Positions 5,070 through 16,175 of a stretch of DNA of 16,627 nucleotides are shown here, one piece after another. Made by a program: the position numbers and the translations under genes. The number at the start of each line of letters is the position of its first letter. The stretch's first letter is position 1. The DNA is from a bacterium. Lineage in GTDB: Bacteria > RBG-13-66-14. The notes under the pieces are model-generated. The model was given only the letters and a program-made list of their open reading frames with translations, was not told the origin of the DNA and made no database searches. Location: positions 1 to 16,627 of the forward strand of contig DATKYS010000091.1 in the NCBI GenBank assembly GCA_035528375.1, written 5' to 3'.

Positions 5070-5399
5070 GGGGGACGGCGCCGCGTCATGCGTTTTGCGA
5101 TGATGTAAGGCGGTCCCTCCGCGGGCCGCCGTCATCACGTTCCCAATCTCGACCCTCACCCTAGCCCGTAGGCGCGCCTCTCCCTGGAAGGGAGAGGGGA
5201 CCGATTCACCCCTCTCCCCGGCACTGTATCGTTGCGCTGGCGTAGGGCGGGGAATCCTTTCCCCGCCGCATTTAAAAGGTGGCCCTCACCCTCAATCCCT
5301 CTCCCGGAGGGAGAGGGAGGCCGCGGGCCGCCGCGTTTTCGACGATTCCTACCCCGACCCTCACCCCAACCCTCTCCCTAGAAGGGAGAGGGAGCCGCT
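5070..5399. repeat. Repeat array upstream of nadB
   Basis: No gene seen. It holds a degenerate REP-like hairpin (GGCGG/CCGCC, 5109-5130), a variant hairpin with GGCGGGGAA and its complement (5246-5254/5259-5267, loop TCCT), and CCCTCACCC...GGGAGAGGG elements at about 5153-5199, 5283-5317 and 5358-5392, plus a truncated piece near 5206-5220. The last two lack the GTCGGCGCGCC core found in the longer copies, so short and long forms of the element coexist. Confidence 0.82.
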
Positions 5400-6854: not shown

Positions 6855-7241
6855 GGCCGCGCCGGGTTGCGACGATGTAGGGGCCGACCGACCGGTCGGC
6901 CCGCGGGCGACCGTGGACGGCCGCCCCTACGGGTTTGATACGCGGATTATCGTAGGGGCGGGTGTCCACACCCGCCCGTATTCACCCCTCTCCCCGGCCC
7001 GTAAGCAACCCTCCGCCCAGAGGGGGGAGGGGACATAAGGCAGCCCTCACCCCCATCCCCGTAGGCGAGCCTCTCCCACAGGGAGAGGGGGGCCTTTTCA
7101 CCCCTCACCCCAACCCTCTCCCTGGAGGGGGGAGGGGACGCTGCAACCCCGGCCCTCGCTCCGCTTCTTGCGACGACGTAGGGCGGCCCCGTAGGACGAG
7201 TCCTCTGCGGGCCGCCGCTTTACACCTCACCCCGGCCTCCG
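6855..7241. repeat. Repeat array between the mop and racemase operons
   Basis: No gene seen. Hairpins occur at 6881-6902 (GGGCCGACC stem, loop GACC), 6905-6926 (inverse orientation, one mismatch), 6956-6977 (GGGCGGGTGT/ACACCCGCCC, 10 bp) and 7182-7216 (nested: outer GGCGGCCC/GGGCCGCC, inner AGGAC/GTCCT). The second element appears at about 6985-7033, 7044-7090 and 7101-7138. The first two hairpins are back to back, head-on, as in BIME-type REP pairs. Confidence 0.82.
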
Positions 7242-8989: not shown

Positions 8990-10108
8990 ATGTTCCGCGT
9001 GCGCGAGACCGTCAAGGGCATCCGCCCCTACAAGCCGGGCAAGCCCTCCGATGAGCTCAGGCGCGAGCTGGGCCTCGAGGGCGAGATAATCAAGCTGGCC
9101 TCCAACGAGAACCCGCTCGGGCCCCCGCCGCGGGTGATGCGCGCTCTCCGGGCGCACGTGGGCGAGGTCCACCTCTACCCGGACGACGCCTGCTACTACC
9201 TGACGCGGGCCCTGGCCGAGCACCACGCGGTGGACCCCTCCATGATAATCGTGGACCGGGGCTCGTCGGGCGTCATCGAGCTGGCGGCCAAGCTCCTCTT
9301 GAACCCCGGCGACGAGGTCGTTTACTCCGAGAAGAGCTTCCTCATGTACCCGCTGATGGCGCAGACATTCGGCGCCGTGCACCGGAGCGTACCCCTGCGC
9401 CCGGATTACGTCATAGACCTGGACGGGATGCTGGCCGCTATAACCCCCAAGACCAAGCTCGTCTACCTGCCCAACCCGAACAACCCCACGGGGACGTACA
9501 ACGACGCGGCTTCGCTGGGGCGGTTCATCGGGGCGCTGCCCGACCACGTGGTCCTGGCGCTGGACGAGGCGTACGTGCTCTTCGCCGACGACATGGTCTC
9601 CGATTACGAGTCGGGCCTTAAATTCCTCGTCTCCGGCCGGCGGAACGTCTTCATCCTGCGCACCTTCTCCAAGTCCCACGCCATGGCGGGCCTGCGGGTG
9701 GGGTACGGCATCGGGGACCCGGAGCTGGTCGTCGAGATGCACAAGGTCCGCGCCCCGTTCAACGTCGTTTCCCTCTCGCAGCACGCCGCCCTGGCCGCCC
9801 TGGAAGACTCCGAATTCGTCGCCCAGACCCTGGAGGTCAACCGCGCGGGGATGAAGACACTCGTCGAGGGCCTGCGGGGGCTGGGATTCGAGACGGTGCC
9901 CTCGACGGCCAACTTCGTGCTTTTCCCCGCCGACACGGCGGAGCGCGCCGCCTTCCTCTCGGACGGCCTGTTGAAAAAGGGCGTCATCGTCCGGCCCATG
10001 ACCGCCTTCGGCCTCCCCGACCACATCCGCGTCACCGTCGGCCTGGACTGGCAGATAGAGGCCTTCCTCGAGGGTCTGGCGGCGGTGTTGAAAACCGAAA
10101 AGAAGTGA
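8990..10108 (+). CDS. hisC: Histidinol-phosphate aminotransferase family (HisC-like) PLP enzyme
   Basis: Fold-I PLP aminotransferase of the HisC subfamily, which converts imidazole-acetol phosphate to histidinol phosphate with glutamate, or in paralogues transaminates aromatic amino acids. 372 residues, normal length. Seen: KLASNENPLGPPP (35-47), PNPNNPTG (161-168), Asp192/Tyr195 in LALDEAYV, the PLP lysine Lys228 in RTFSKSHAMAGLRVGYG, and Arg347 in HIRVTVG for the substrate carboxylate. The cofactor-phosphate loop reads GSSGVIEL rather than the common GSDE, and SKSHAMAG differs from the frequent SKAYGLAG, so a HisC2/aromatic-type role is possible. Start chosen at 8990 because GGGAG precedes it by six bases and the HisC N-terminus follows; an upstream in-frame extension from 8855 crosses the promoter. 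No other his genes are near. Confidence 0.88.
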   Translation: MFRVRETVKGIRPYKPGKPSDELRRELGLEGEIIKLASNENPLGPPPRVMRALRAHVGEVHLYPDDACYYLTRALAEHHAVDPSMIIVDRGSSGVIELAAKLLLNPGDEVVYSEKSFLMYPLMAQTFGAVHRSVPLRPDYVIDLDGMLAAITPKTKLVYLPNPNNPTGTYNDAASLGRFIGALPDHVVLALDEAYVLFADDMVSDYESGLKFLVSGRRNVFILRTFSKSHAMAGLRVGYGIGDPELVVEMHKVRAPFNVVSLSQHAALAALEDSEFVAQTLEVNRAGMKTLVEGLRGLGFETVPSTANFVLFPADTAERAAFLSDGLLKKGVIVRPMTAFGLPDHIRVTVGLDWQIEAFLEGLAAVLKTEKK

Positions 10109-11622
10109 CCTTGAACCACGCGACCGAACCGGACCGTCCCCGCGAGGAGTGCGGCGTATTCGGCATTTTCGGCCATCCCGAGAGCGCCGTTTACACCTAC
10201 CTCGGCCTCTACGCCCTGCAGCACCGGGGCCAGGAGTCGGCGGGCATCGCCTCGCGCCTGACCGACGGCACCATGCGCTTCCACCGGGCCATGGGCACCG
10301 CGGCCGAGGTCTTCGACGAGCGTGAGCTGAGGCGCCTCAAGGGCGACGCCGCCATCGGACACGTCCGCTACTCCACCACCGGCGCCAGCCGCCTCCTCAA
10401 CGCCCAGCCCATCTACGTCGAGTTCGGCAAGGGCAAGCTCGCCGTGGCCCACAACGGCAACCTCACCAACGCCCAGAGCATCCGCCGGAGCCTCGAGGCC
10501 CAGGGCTCCATCTTCACCACCACCACCGACTCCGAGGTGATGGTCCACCTGATGGCGATGAGCCGGGAGAGCGAACCCGAGGGGTTCATCGGCGACGCCC
10601 TGCGGCGGTGCCAGGGCTCCTTCTCCCTGGTGGCCCTGACCCCGGACCGGCTGGTGGCCGTGCGCGACCCGCGGGGGATACGCCCCCTGTGCCTGGGCAC
10701 CCGCGAGTGGACCGACGAGGCGGGGGAGGCCCACCTGGCCTGGCTCGTTTCCAGCGAGTCGTGCAGCTTCGACGTGATAGACGCGCGCTACGAGCGGGAG
10801 ATAGCCCCCGGCGAGATGGTGGTGGTGGACGCGGGTGGCCTGCGGAGCGTGTGGCCATTCGATCCGCGGCCCGAGGCGTTCTGCGTCTTCGAGTACGTCT
10901 ACTTCGCCCGCCCGGATTCGGTCCTGCGGGGCAAGAGCGTTTACGGCGTGCGCAAGGAGCTGGGCCGCCGCCTGGCCGTGCAGCTCGCCGAGGCCGGAAT
11001 CACCGGCGACGTGGTCATCGCCGTCCCCGATTCTTCTAACCCCACCGCGCTCGGGCTGGCGCAGGCCTCCGGCATACCCTTCGAGTTCGGGCTCATCCGC
11101 AGCCACTACGTCGGCCGCACCTTCATCGAGCCCAAGCAGCAGATACGCGACTTCGGCGCCAAGCTCAAGTACAACCCAGTCCGCACCGTGCTGAAGGATA
11201 AGAGAGTCATCTGCGTGGACGACTCCATCGTGCGCGGGACGACAAGTAAAAAAATCGTCAAGATGCTCAAGGCCGCCGGCGCCTCCGAGGTCCACCTCGC
11301 CATAAGCTGCCCCCCCTGGCGCTACCCCTGCTACTACGGCATAGACGTCAGCAACTACATGGAGCTCGTCGCCAACGAGAGCTCCTCCATGGACCGGGTA
11401 CGGGAGTTCATCGGCTGCGAGACGCTGACCTACCTGACGCTGGAGCATCTTTTGGAGGGGACGGGTCTGCCGGTGGACAGCTTCTGCCACGCATGCTTCG
11501 ACGGCATCTACGTGGTGCGGCCCGAGGGGCCGGTTCACGGGCCGGGCCAGCCGCAGCTATTCCTCGGCTTGGCCGACGCCCCGTCGCACAAGGAGTCCGA
11601 GTTCCCCGAGGGCGAGCGGTAG
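10105..11622 (+). CDS. purF: Amidophosphoribosyltransferase PurF (iron-sulfur type)
   Basis: Transfers glutamine amide nitrogen to PRPP, giving 5-phosphoribosylamine, the committed step of purine synthesis. 505 residues: an N-terminal Ntn-glutaminase with nucleophile Cys16 in ECGVFGIFG, exposed after removal of a 15-residue propeptide, HVRYSTTG (86-93) and HNGNL (116-120), then a phosphoribosyltransferase domain with PRPP loop VICVDDSIVRGTT (368-380). Cys260 (FCVFEYVYFARPDS), Cys409 (PCYYGID), Cys461 and Cys464 (CHACFDG) correspond to the four cluster ligands of the Bacillus subtilis enzyme, so it should hold a 4Fe-4S cluster and be oxygen sensitive. The start is GTG inside GTGA, overlapping the aminotransferase stop by four bases; TTG at 10111 is an alternative. 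AMP/GMP feedback inhibition is known for the family. Confidence 0.95.
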   Translation: MTLNHATEPDRPREECGVFGIFGHPESAVYTYLGLYALQHRGQESAGIASRLTDGTMRFHRAMGTAAEVFDERELRRLKGDAAIGHVRYSTTGASRLLNAQPIYVEFGKGKLAVAHNGNLTNAQSIRRSLEAQGSIFTTTTDSEVMVHLMAMSRESEPEGFIGDALRRCQGSFSLVALTPDRLVAVRDPRGIRPLCLGTREWTDEAGEAHLAWLVSSESCSFDVIDARYEREIAPGEMVVVDAGGLRSVWPFDPRPEAFCVFEYVYFARPDSVLRGKSVYGVRKELGRRLAVQLAEAGITGDVVIAVPDSSNPTALGLAQASGIPFEFGLIRSHYVGRTFIEPKQQIRDFGAKLKYNPVRTVLKDKRVICVDDSIVRGTTSKKIVKMLKAAGASEVHLAISCPPWRYPCYYGIDVSNYMELVANESSSMDRVREFIGCETLTYLTLEHLLEGTGLPVDSFCHACFDGIYVVRPEGPVHGPGQPQLFLGLADAPSHKESEFPEGER

Positions 11623-11702
11623 GTTTTAGCGATTGTCCGCGAGGTTGAATTACGATGTGTCGTCGGTACTGGGGCGATATGGCTAGGGAAGTAGACTCGT
11701 AG

Positions 11703-11724
11703 GGGCGGACCTTCAGGTCCGCCC
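11703..11724 (+). repeat. REP-like hairpin upstream of the RAYT
   Basis: Perfect 10-bp stem GGGCGGACCT/AGGTCCGCCC around TC, preceded by CGTAG and followed by GCGG. Identical in stem to the copy at 2289-2310. No T-tract follows this one. Confidence 0.85.
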
Positions 11725-11736
11725 GCGGAACGGCGA

Positions 11737-12210
11737 ATGGCTGAAAATCAACCCAAACGTCTCACCGCGCCGCGGCTGCATTCATTCAAATACACCGGCC
11801 CGTACGCGTATTTCATTACCATCTGCACCTACTCCCGCCTACCTCTTCTAAAAGGCGAAACCCTTGTTTCCGGTATTCTAGCCTTATTGGAATCGGCGTG
11901 TGACGAGGAGAGTTTCCACCTTATGGCGTACTGTTTCATGCCTGACCATCTGCATCTTTTGGTCGCGGGCGAAGAGAAGAGCAGCCTCGCCAAGCTGGTA
12001 AAGAGGTTCAAGCAGAACAGCTCGTTTCATTACAGGGGAGGCGGAGGTTCCCACTTGTGGCAGAGAAGCTACTACGACCACGTTTTAAGGTGTGAGGAGG
12101 AAGTGGTCGAAGTTGCCAGGTACATTTGGGAAAATCCTATTCGAAAGGGTCTGGTTGAAACTATCAGTGATTATCCATTTTCGGGTCCCGTTGATTTAAT
12201 GCCCTCGTGA
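11737..12210 (+). CDS. REP-associated tyrosine transposase (RAYT, Y1/HUH family)
   Basis: A 157-residue Y1 transposase-like single-strand nuclease. The metal-binding HUH motif is His71-Leu-His73 within FMPDHLHLLV (67-76), and the catalytic tyrosine is most likely Tyr113 in WQRSYYDHVLR (108-118). The block VARYIWENPIRKGLV (126-140) is typical of RAYTs (usual form YIxxNPxRAGLV). Known RAYTs bind and cut REP hairpins and, unlike IS200 transposases, do not usually move their own gene; they are thought to have been domesticated for REP dispersal. Here REP-like hairpins flank the gene on both sides. The ribosome site is poor (GGAA about eight bases before the ATG), suggesting low expression. Codon use and about 50% G+C differ from purF and purM on either side, which fits horizontal acquisition. 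Confidence 0.9.
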   Translation: MAENQPKRLTAPRLHSFKYTGPYAYFITICTYSRLPLLKGETLVSGILALLESACDEESFHLMAYCFMPDHLHLLVAGEEKSSLAKLVKRFKQNSSFHYRGGGGSHLWQRSYYDHVLRCEEEVVEVARYIWENPIRKGLVETISDYPFSGPVDLMPS

Positions 12211-12218
12211 ACGGACAC

Positions 12219-12252
12219 GGGCCGACCTGAACGGCGCGCCGTCGGTCGGCCC
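12219..12252 (-). repeat. Inverse REP-like hairpin downstream of the RAYT with inner palindrome
   Basis: Outer 9-bp stem GGGCCGACC (12219-12227) with GGTCGGCCC (12244-12252); the loop contains a 12-base perfect palindrome ACGGCGCGCCGT (12231-12242), so it can fold as a stacked hairpin. CTAC follows, the reverse of the GTAG that precedes other copies, so this unit is inverted relative to 11703-11724. Confidence 0.8.
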
Positions 12253-12289
12253 CTACGAGGGTGTACCGGAATTGAAAACAGACCCGTAG

Positions 12290-12311
12290 GGGTGGACCTT
12301 CAGGTCCGCCC
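12290..12311 (+). repeat. REP-like hairpin in the purM leader
   Basis: GGGTGGACCT/AGGTCCGCCC around TC, with one G-T wobble; GTAG precedes it. It lies 65 bases before the purM start and lacks a T-tract, so it may be read through; if purM is transcribed from upstream it lies in the message. Confidence 0.8.
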
Positions 12312-12376
12312 GTGGTTGAATCGAAAAAGACGATTGGCTGAAGCCGTTGACCGTGCTTGACCGCGAAAGGGGCCGG

Positions 12377-13420
12377 ATGGACCAGGGGCGCAATCCGTAC
12401 GCGAAGGCCGGGGTGGACGTGGGGGCCGGGGAGCGGTTCGTCGAGGCCATAAAACCCCTGGCCGCCTCGACGCGCATCCGGGGCTGCGTGGACGCGCTGG
12501 GCGGCTTCGGCGCCGCCTTCGACCCGAAAGCCGCCGGGCTCGAGGACCCGCTCCTCGTCTCCGGCACCGACGGCGTGGGGACCAAGGTCCTGGTCGCCAT
12601 CCGGGCCGGGGTCCACGACACCGTCGGCATAGACTGCGTGGCGATGAACGCCAACGACGTGCTGTGCGCGGGGGCGCGGCCGCTCTTTTTCCTGGACTAC
12701 CTCGCCACCGGGAAGCTCGACGCGGAGCGGGACACGGCGATTCTTTCAGGCGTGGCCGAGGGCTGCCGTCGGGCGGGCTGCGCGCTCATCGGCGGCGAGA
12801 CGGCGGAGATGCCGGGCGTTTATAAGGAAGGCGACTACGATTTGGCCGGGTTCGTCGTGGGGGCGGTGGAGCGGGGGCGGGAGTTTTCGCCGGAGAGGGT
12901 GACGCCGGGCATGGCGCTGGTGGGCCTCGGCTCGTCGGGGCTCCATTCCAACGGATTTTCGCTGGTGCGGCGGCTGGTTTTCGACGTGGCGGGCCTGGAC
13001 GTGGACGCGCACGTGGACGCGCTGGGTAAGACCGTGGCCGAGGAGCTCTTGACGCCCACGCGCCTCTACACGAAGCTCCTGCCGCTGTTTAACAAGCACG
13101 GGACGGCGGCGCTGGCGCACATCACCGGGGGCGGCATCGCCGGCAACCTGGGGCGTGTGATCCCGCCGGGGGCGAAGGCCGTCGTGAAGCGTGGCAGTTG
13201 GCCGAAACAGTCGGTCTTCGCCTGGCTGCAAAAAATCGGCAAGTTGGCGGACGACGAGATGGAGCGGGTGTTCAACTGCGGCTTGGGGCTCATCGCCTGC
13301 GTGCCGGAGGAGAAGGCCGAGGCGCTGGTGGCCGATCTCGCCAAGGCTGGGGAGTTCGCCTACCGGGTGGGCGAGGTGGTCGCCGCCGACGGGGAGCCCC
13401 GGGCGGCGGTGGTGGATTAG
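12377..13420 (+). CDS. purM: Phosphoribosylformylglycinamidine cyclo-ligase PurM (AIR synthetase)
   Basis: ATP-dependent ring closure of FGAM to aminoimidazole ribonucleotide, fifth step of purine synthesis; cytosolic dimer. 347 residues, matching about 345 in E. coli. Visible: YAKAGVDVGAG near 8-18, ATP/Mg site SGTDGVGTKVLVA (62-74), DCVAMNANDVLCAGARPLFFLDY (86-108), GGETAEMPGVY (139-149), and later the glycine-rich HITGGGIAGNLGRV. The start is ATG 12377 with GAAAGGGG just upstream; a TTG start at 12347 would add ten residues (TVLDRERGR) not typical of the family. It lies downstream of purF in the same orientation, separated by the RAYT and hairpins, so an ancestral purF-purM unit may have been split. 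No promoter was confidently found in front. Confidence 0.95.
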   Translation: MDQGRNPYAKAGVDVGAGERFVEAIKPLAASTRIRGCVDALGGFGAAFDPKAAGLEDPLLVSGTDGVGTKVLVAIRAGVHDTVGIDCVAMNANDVLCAGARPLFFLDYLATGKLDAERDTAILSGVAEGCRRAGCALIGGETAEMPGVYKEGDYDLAGFVVGAVERGREFSPERVTPGMALVGLGSSGLHSNGFSLVRRLVFDVAGLDVDAHVDALGKTVAEELLTPTRLYTKLLPLFNKHGTAALAHITGGGIAGNLGRVIPPGAKAVVKRGSWPKQSVFAWLQKIGKLADDEMERVFNCGLGLIACVPEEKAEALVADLAKAGEFAYRVGEVVAADGEPRAAVVD

Positions 13421-13467
13421 GCGCCGGGCGGTCCGAGCCCGTTCCGTGCCGCGTTGCGATGACGTAG

Positions 13468-13495
13468 GGGCCGACCTTCAGGTCGGCCCGTTTTT
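13468..13495 (+). terminator. Intrinsic terminator after purM formed by a REP-like hairpin
   Basis: Perfect 10-bp stem GGGCCGACCT (13468-13477) with AGGTCGGCCC (13480-13489), then G and T5 (13491-13495), 47 bases after the purM stop. Another repeat-family copy serving as a terminator. Confidence 0.7.
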
Positions 13496-13831
13496 GCCCC
13501 TCTCCCTAACCCTCCCCCCAGAGGGGGGAGGGGACATGCACCCCTCACCCCGGCCCGTCGGCGCGCCGCTCCCTGAGAGGGAGAGGGGATAGCTGCACCC
13601 CCCTCCCCGGCCCGTTGCGATGTCGTAGGGGGCGACCTTCAGGTCGGCCCGTTTTTGCCCCTCTCCCTAACCCTCCCCCCAGAGGGGGGGAACATACGGC
13701 AGCCCTCACCCCCATCCCCTCTCCCACGGGGAGAGGGGGGCCGCTACACCCCTCACCCGCGAGTGCGATGACGTAGGGCGGCCCCGTAGGACGAGTCCTC
13801 TGCGGGCCGCCGCGAATTGCGATTACGTAGG

Positions 13832-13861
13832 GCGGGGAATCCTTTCCCCGCTGCTTTTTTT
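13832..13861 (+). terminator. Terminator-like hairpin with T7
   Basis: 8-bp stem GCGGGGAA (13832-13839) with TTCCCCGC (13844-13851), loop TCCT, then TGC and T7 (13855-13861). It lies upstream of the rnfC promoter and would block read-through from the purine side. Confidence 0.6.
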
Positions 13862-15402: not shown

Positions 15403-15786
15403 ATGGCTTGGAAGATAAAAATAGCTTTTTCGGAAAAAAAGAAAAAAATGGTGTGGAGTAAACATCCAGATAGTTGTGCTTATTGTTTAAAAGAAATACA
15501 TTACGACGATCACGGTAAGTGTCAAGCTAATCCACCTGAGACAGCATGGGAAATAGAACATGATGTACCTGAAACTGATGACTATTGGAAAATAACAGGT
15601 AAAGATCCTCATAATATAGACAATCTATGGCCGGTTTGTTGTGATTGTAATGATACGAAAGACGAACTATGGGGGTATGAGTATTTAGATATTCTCAAGA
15701 GTGAGGGAATTATGTGTGACGAAGCTGTGTATGGAGAAATATTATCAATTGCTGCAATTAGGAAGACAGAATTGTTAGATGAATAG
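15403..15786 (+). CDS. HNH-endonuclease-like protein
   Basis: 127 residues in an A+T-rich gene. The zinc-supported HNH (beta-beta-alpha-metal) pattern is readable: Cys25-x2-Cys28 (CAYC), then WEIEHDVPE with Glu52-His53 in the place of the usual Asp/Glu-His, then Asn74 in DNLWPV and Cys79-x2-Cys82-Asn83 with Lys86 (CCDCNDTK). This is the layout of stand-alone HNH nucleases that cut or nick DNA with a divalent metal. The N-terminus is lysine-rich (SEKKKK, 10-15), which could contact DNA. No signal peptide, membrane segment or toxin-delivery domain is seen. The ribosome site at the rnfC stop implies co-expression with the rnf genes. It could be a restriction-type, homing-type or toxin nuclease; the target is not predictable. 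Confidence 0.75.
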   Translation: MAWKIKIAFSEKKKKMVWSKHPDSCAYCLKEIHYDDHGKCQANPPETAWEIEHDVPETDDYWKITGKDPHNIDNLWPVCCDCNDTKDELWGYEYLDILKSEGIMCDEAVYGEILSIAAIRKTELLDE

Positions 15787-15805
15787 AATCCTATTTTAAT
15801 CTTGT

Positions 15806-15822
15806 TACATGATTTACATGTA
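15806..15822. promoter_or_regulatory. 17-bp palindrome upstream of the small acidic gene
   Basis: TACATG (15806-15811) and CATGTA (15817-15822) form a perfect 6-bp dyad around ATTTA, in the 62-base gap between the two insert genes and 26 bases before the second start. Its size and position suit an operator for a dimeric regulator, but no T-tract follows, so it is not a terminator. Confidence 0.4.
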
Positions 15823-15848
15823 GATATTTGCAGCCTAAGGAGAGGAAG

Positions 15849-16175
15849 ATGGACAAGAACGACTTTAGTATTTCTCTTGACATTATTGCTGTTGAGATTT
15901 TATTGAAATGTGTATTAGATGATATACAAAAAATGGATGTATACAAAGCAAGTTTGGTAAAGAAGGTATTTGAAAGAGTCAACGATAAAATTGAATTTTT
16001 GACAGGTGATGTTGAGAATATAATAAAAGATACATCATTTGCTAAGTTAAAAAAATTTGTATTTGAGCTTCTAGAAGGCTATCCGAACCAAGAGCTGATT
16101 GGTTATTGGCAAATTGATTATATTTTTGATGGGTTAAATTACGATGAATTAAAAAAGGATGGAATAATTGATTGA
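15849..16175 (+). CDS. Small acidic protein of unknown function, partner of the HNH-like gene
   Basis: 108 residues, not recognised. It is acidic (about 22 Asp/Glu against 14 Lys/Arg), appears mostly helical (long amphipathic stretches at 8-29 and 31-51, and around 64-77), and ends in an aromatic, acidic tail (GYWQIDYIFDGLNYDELKK, 85-103). There is no signal peptide or membrane segment and a single Cys (21). ATG 15849 is chosen because AAGGAGAGG (15837-15845) precedes it; a TTG start seven codons earlier would translate that ribosome site. Acidic small proteins encoded directly after a nuclease are often its inhibitors (immunity proteins), which is the favoured but unproven idea. Base composition matches the HNH gene, so the two probably arrived together. 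Confidence 0.65.
   Translation: MDKNDFSISLDIIAVEILLKCVLDDIQKMDVYKASLVKKVFERVNDKIEFLTGDVENIIKDTSFAKLKKFVFELLEGYPNQELIGYWQIDYIFDGLNYDELKKDGIID

Follow-up and report, generated by a model that had tools for sequence, protein, structure and literature searches.

A single-copy RAYT gene and its probable cognate GTAG REP hairpins between purF and purM in an uncultured bacterium

Background

REPtrons, in which a RAYT gene is flanked by a REP and an inverted REP (iREP) with many further copies in the genome, are a kind of system that has been described since 2010-2013. The group-3 REPtrons of Marinomonas sp. MWYL1 (Mb) and Stenotrophomonas maltophilia (Sm) combine a single small Y1 gene with perfect-palindrome GTAG REPs (PMC8266576). 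TnpA-REP enzymes bind the REP, but not the iREP, as a folded single strand; the GTAG foot guides the choice of the cleavage site, CT or CA, and the tyrosine cleaves and rejoins the strands (PMC8266576). The Marinomonas enzyme of group 3 required T12, T13 and A15 of its TTTA loop in vitro, position 14 being free (PMC8266576), and the motifs tabulated for group 3 (subclass 2.5) are DH[LF]H / WQ / YIxxNP (PMC6006769). The REPs of the GTAG superfamily (Di Nocera et al. 2013, PMC3733652) share the GTAG foot and a short loop, form several families per genome, are intergenic with convergent and same-direction gaps favoured, and occur in head-to-head (HH) and TT dimers. What RAYTs do for the cell is generally unknown (PMC8049555). 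Here we describe a system of this kind found in a 16,627-nt contig (DATKYS010000091.1; the window, meaning the whole stretch of DNA analysed) of the draft assembly (144 contigs, 2.63 Mb) of an uncultured bacterium.

The RAYT locus

The first-pass annotation had placed in 11698-12315 a RAYT bracketed by a plus, an inverted and another plus hairpin and separating purF from purM, and this arrangement was found as described:

10105-11622, purF, upstream of the RAYT gap
11699-11724, + strand, REP, class A, GTAG followed by GGGCGGACCT-TC-AGGTCCGCCC, perfect 10-bp stem
11737-12210, + strand, RAYT / TnpA-REP gene, 157 aa, HUH motif H71-L-H73, catalytic Tyr129
12219-12256, - strand, iREP, class A, 'GAC' arm GGGCCGACC, TTCA loop preceded by 12 extra nt
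12286-12311, + strand, REP, class A, one stem mismatch (GGGTGG)
12347-13420, purM, downstream of the RAYT gap

The first REP, whose sequence has 17 exact copies genome-wide, stops 12 nt 5' of the RAYT start codon, and the other two hairpins form an iREP-REP pair. The iREP has a class A stem and is missed by a strict scan because of the extra nucleotides preceding its TTCA loop.

The RAYT protein reached 55.5 bits with the Pfam Y1_Tnp model (PF01797) and 109.4 bits with the NCBIfam equivalog REP_Tyr_transpos (NF047646, cut-off 80). A sequence search of the PDB gave as top match 4er8, the E. coli TnpA-REP bound to a REP, with Tyr129 aligned to its position 115, and the same structure ranked first when the AlphaFold2 model (25 aligned sequences, mean pLDDT 87.6) was submitted to Foldseek (TM 0.72, rmsd 2.1 over 133 columns), followed by the ISDra2 and IS608 transposases. 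Residues H71, H73, K92, W108, Y129 and N133 are invariant in alignments of 14 and 25 relatives. The motifs DHLH, WQ and YIWENP, together with the TTNA loop of the flanking hairpins, fit group 3 (subclass 2.5), to which the RAYT may belong.

Both the Y1_Tnp domain and the IS200-like fold could fit an ordinary IS200/IS605 insertion sequence, a reading that we give hardly any credence. The gene is the only Y1 match in the genome even at E <= 10, which bears out its earlier description as single-copy, where insertion sequences typically occur in multiple copies that have fixed ends and subterminal hairpins; it scores above the cut-off of the REP-specific model and below that of the IS200 model (42.3 of 55 bits), and GTAG REPs flank it in a REP/iREP arrangement. 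The single copy led us to reject this candidate. The gene is probably a domesticated small transposase gene.

Comparison with described systems

The locus resembles the Mb and Sm REPtrons in its single small Y1 gene, its perfect-palindrome GTAG REPs and its HUH and Tyr motifs, and it shares with Mb the TTNA loop (PMC8266576). The stem is 9-10 bp long and directly follows the GTAG, whereas in Mb it has 5 bp and lies 2 nt away from the foot (PMC8266576). The host also belongs to a different, sparsely sampled phylum, and its system is known from sequence. With the E. coli TnpA-REP (4er8) and the Y/Z BIMEs of group 2, besides the top sequence and fold match, it has in common the GTAG foot, the alternating orientation and the pairing of two arm types in dimers. 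Unlike those of E. coli, its REPs are perfect palindromes without a stem bulge, and the protein appears to be devoid of the C-terminal extension described for group 2. The hairpins have the unpaired 5' GTAG, the short loop, the high copy number and the intergenic location of the GTAG superfamily, including its preference for convergent and same-direction gaps, its HH and TT dimers and its several families in one genome; they differ from the described members by their stems (GGGCGGACC/GGGCCGACC) and by a 2-nt spacer that never varies in close HH dimers (PMC3733652). By identity (47-52%) the closest RAYTs were those of Chloroflexota/Dehalococcoidia (L110 and L112-L116, e.g. JADFRJ010000235.1), each likewise flanked by GTAG hairpins, with TTCA, TTTA or TTGA loops; these belong to another phylum and their stems are mostly GGGACAGACC or similar.

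The window system is an ordinary REPtron, a known kind in an uncommon host. REPtrons as such are described, and at most the lineage may be new; a search of the literature available gave no papers on REPIN/RAYT in uncultured lineages, although this is no proof of absence.

Hairpin families in the window

A strict GTAG-plus-stem scan of the window detected 11 hairpins, the mean for 20 first-order Markov sequences being 0.4. The dozen related hairpins noticed before turned out to be of mixed kinds. About half belong, with the flanking ones, to the class A of the RAYT:

2285-2310, + strand, REP, class A, identical to 11699-11724, T run after
2493-2518, + strand, REP, class A, foot decayed to TTAG
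13464-13489, + strand, REP, class A, 'GAC' arm, T run after
13625-13650, + strand, REP, class A, one mismatch

The rest are members of other GTAG families, one of them degenerate:

146-171, - strand, GTAG hairpin, near class B, TCTCCTGA tip
5242-5267, + strand, GTAG hairpin, class C, GTAGGGCGGGG...
6877-6902, + strand, GTAG hairpin, degenerate loop, 2 nt from 6905-6930 in head-to-head orientation
6905-6930, - strand, GTAG hairpin, class B, GTCCAC loop, outside the class of this RAYT
6952-6977, + strand, GTAG hairpin, class B, GTAGGGGCGGGTGTCCACACCCGCCC, matching RAYT found in the congener G001
13827-13851, + strand, GTAG hairpin, class C

Other repeats were also seen in the window. A second palindromic repeat, without GTAG (CCCTCACCC...CTCTCCC...GGGAGAGGGG), shares gaps with the GTAG hairpins and is interspersed with them (2318-2374, 2526-2582, 5154-5208, 7035-7091 and 13531-13597, with an inverted copy at 69-125). 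A 50-nt element (GTAGGGCGGCCCC-GTAGGACGAGTCCTCT-GCGGGCCGCC) found at 7169-7218 and 13764-13813 (98% identical) resembles a class D hairpin that carries an insert within its loop or close to it. At the contig start, positions 1-48 and 121-168 are identical 48-nt stretches, both of which contain a GGTGAGGGCC motif and one arm of a hairpin. At the contig end, an HNH-domain ORF and a neighbouring ORF (15403-16175; GC 35% and 30% in a genome of 65% GC) look like foreign DNA.

Abundance and placement in the genome

The counts given here rest on genome-wide pattern searches and on stretches totalling ~735 kb. The flanking family, class A (GTAGGGGC-SSACC-TTYA, searched as GTAGGGGCGGACCTTCAGGTCCGCCC), has 121 copies in the genome at <= 3 mismatches, 17 of them exact, while the reversed pattern was found at 0 places. 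A generic scan for GTAG plus a stem in 382 kb of large contigs gave 113 hairpins, against 8 in Markov sequence, which scales to ~700 hairpins per genome. Six of the seven permuted feet used as controls gave 4-16 hairpins; the remaining one, TAGG, had 99 matches and is not independent because it is GTAG read one base later.

None of 111 GTAG hairpins fell inside genes called by a simple codon-usage gene caller, a figure to be read as 'very few' because this home-made caller missed the RAYT itself. Convergent gaps hold 42 of the 92 hairpins with both neighbours called, compared with 26 convergent gaps among 288 gene pairs overall, and a TTTT was found within 10 nt of 38 of the 111. The intergenic pattern is the same as that described for GTAG REPs (PMC3733652).

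Dimers were studied in the whole ~735 kb, including a second set of stretches, mostly contigs known to carry hairpins, which was excluded from the density estimate. All 19 head-to-head pairs <= 6 nt apart had a 2-nt spacer. In 16 of the 18 head-to-head dimers that could be scored a 'GG' arm was paired with a 'GAC' arm, whereas random pairing gave a mean of 8.4 and 0 of 5000 randomisations came as high, and A-with-B dimers (5 of 14, random mean 7.0) indicated that the classes mix about as by chance.

Pairing of the RAYT with class A

Loop types were scored on a tree of 60 RAYTs from the GTAG hairpins found at <= 300 bp. TTNA loops required 2 changes on this tree, versus a mean of 14.4 when shuffled, and 0 of 500 shuffles were as low. 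In the group of the window RAYT, which takes in Chloroflexota as well as RAYTs from a second family of the host's own phylum, 13 of 13 were flanked by hairpins with TTNA loops, although the support of this group was moderate (SH-aLRT 81) and TTNA-type loops also arise twice outside it. The best evidence that class A is the substrate of this RAYT is that the loops of the whole group match the loop rule of the Marinomonas enzyme. Position, genomic copy number and the tree, all of them sequence data, together make the cognate pairing of the RAYT with the class A REP well supported.

A different reading of the same locus is that the RAYT came later, into a gap where REPs were present before it, the hairpins being leftovers of an earlier, lost system that now persist as relics or transcription terminators, on which the RAYT has little or no effect. 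The T runs near a third of the hairpins would suit it, and so would the composition of the RAYT gene, which has 50% GC compared with 65% in the genome and was missed by a codon model trained on the neighbouring genes. Most RAYT genes checked, in more than one phylum, have 42-57% GC, clearly under their flanks (L032-L034, L041, L042, L076, L084, L110, L116), the exceptions being L042 and L033, nearly equal to their hosts. Since most of the other RAYT loci are also below host GC, a low GC alone is no mark of recent arrival, and we rejected it as proof of a recent transfer. The match of RAYT group and loop type on the tree across several phyla also speaks against a late arrival.

The purF-purM site and the congeners

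In G001, the nearest congener, purF and purM are separated by ~119 bp that hold just two hairpins (a class B pair). In G002 a 1.58-kb gap contains other genes and then, before purM, the same odd iREP and class A REP as in the window, to which it is 86% identical from 12213 on, i.e. from just past the RAYT stop codon. G003 has a class A REP 3' of purF, a class C hairpin 5' of purM and other genes between them. The presence of the same iREP-REP pair without a RAYT in G002 means that the window hairpins need not have come with the RAYT, and the class A REPs in this gap in both G002 and G003 agree with a late arrival of the gene. In all the versions of the gap compared (11623-12346 here, L209, L210 and L211) the cargo differs per genome (a RAYT, hairpins alone, an AT-rich ORF plus another gene, or other genes) and hairpins always adjoin purM or purF. 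This variable cargo between REPs indicates that the purF-purM gap is a place of recurrent insertion or replacement bounded by REPs.

Class A is present in all the congeners, including those that lack this RAYT group, which also agrees with a late arrival; the highest count of its family, however, is that of the genome with this RAYT. Within family f1 this genome has 121 copies and those without its RAYT group have 50, 51, 28, 13, 28 and 3; within f3 there are 22, 9 and 11 copies with the group and 1 without it. The chance of this direction in both families with labels random within them is ~1 in 28, a weak figure from few genomes that differ in completeness. Equal abundance in relatives lacking this RAYT, which had been named beforehand as an argument against the link, was not seen (121 versus 28-51, in few genomes), but the copies do persist there, in numbers of roughly one quarter to two fifths of those here. 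Weighing all this, we regard a late arrival as unlikely, and prefer the reading of a working RAYT with its cognate REPs.

Classes B and C

The genome holds at least three hairpin families and its RAYT matches only one of them. Class B (GTAGGGGCGGGTGTCCACACCCGCCC) was found at 158 places, more than any other GTAG family counted here, and at 64 in G001; class C (GTAGGGCGGGG) at 81 and 110 places, respectively. In the congeners these classes flank RAYTs of a separate clade (L041 with B; L042, L076 and L081 with C), and two more of its members (L084 and L071) are flanked by a TTTA-loop variant of C. A search with L041 revealed no second RAYT in this genome; with no RAYT matching B or C in the assembly, both a loss and an assembly gap at repeats are possible. 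The likeliest makers of the B and C hairpins in the window are other RAYTs, members of the clade that the congeners retain, which have been lost here or escaped assembly. We observed too that G001 has the class B RAYT (L041) and yet fewer class B copies than this genome. A rule by which the presence of a RAYT means more hairpins fails for class B. Given that B and C are abundant without a matching RAYT, copy number does not follow the presence of a RAYT as a general rule.

It might also be thought that the units are mixed composites and that one RAYT handles several or all of the GTAG families (A, B and C) in this form; B and C would then not be orphans. This is the sole Y1 enzyme found although the commonest family is B, and the constant spacer, the chance-like A-B pairing and the 'GG'-'GAC' rule would all be expected; the dimers resemble the Y-Z BIMEs of E. 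coli and leave room for some shared handling of A and B. Nevertheless, a different RAYT clade is flanked by B and C in the congeners, and those group-3 enzymes that were tested elsewhere depend on specific bases of the loop (PMC8266576); we think this reading improbable. Its more specific form, in which a single RAYT would mobilise several loop families through 'GG'/'GAC' head-to-head dimers with the 2-nt spacer, recognising the composite unit and not one loop, seems to us more improbable still.

Proposed mechanism

The explanation that we favour, and hold to be quite probable, is that a single-copy group-3-like RAYT and its cognate GTAG REP/iREP form a REPtron that occasionally spreads REP units. 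By homology the RAYT would be a HUH/Y1 single-strand nuclease binding the REP as folded single-stranded DNA and reading its TTNA loop and 5' GTAG. Tyr129 would cleave beside the hairpin and the RAYT would join the strands, whereby short units, either a REP or a REP-iREP, may now and then be copied or moved to other intergenic gaps. Cleavage and strand transfer are attributed to the window RAYT by analogy with the enzymes studied, and the class A copies were presumably made by this RAYT rather than by an earlier one. The position of the hairpins had been taken as direct evidence linking the RAYT with their dispersal, a claim that is supported only in part. What stands is a partnership with one REP family, shown by proximity and backed by copy number and by the tree, from which we soundly infer an ongoing dispersal of class A by this RAYT. 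The claim does not extend to B and C, as abundant or more without a matching RAYT, for which dispersal by it is not supported, and it has to accommodate the class A copies of the congeners that lack this RAYT.

Conclusions

The locus extends REPtrons to a sparsely sampled phylum. It also offers a set of natural cases on which to test the RAYT-REP recognition code, with one RAYT group associated with TTNA loops across phyla and another clade, in the same genus, mostly with other loops. Finally, it reveals a genome in which two abundant REP families appear to have outlasted their RAYT or been deprived of it.
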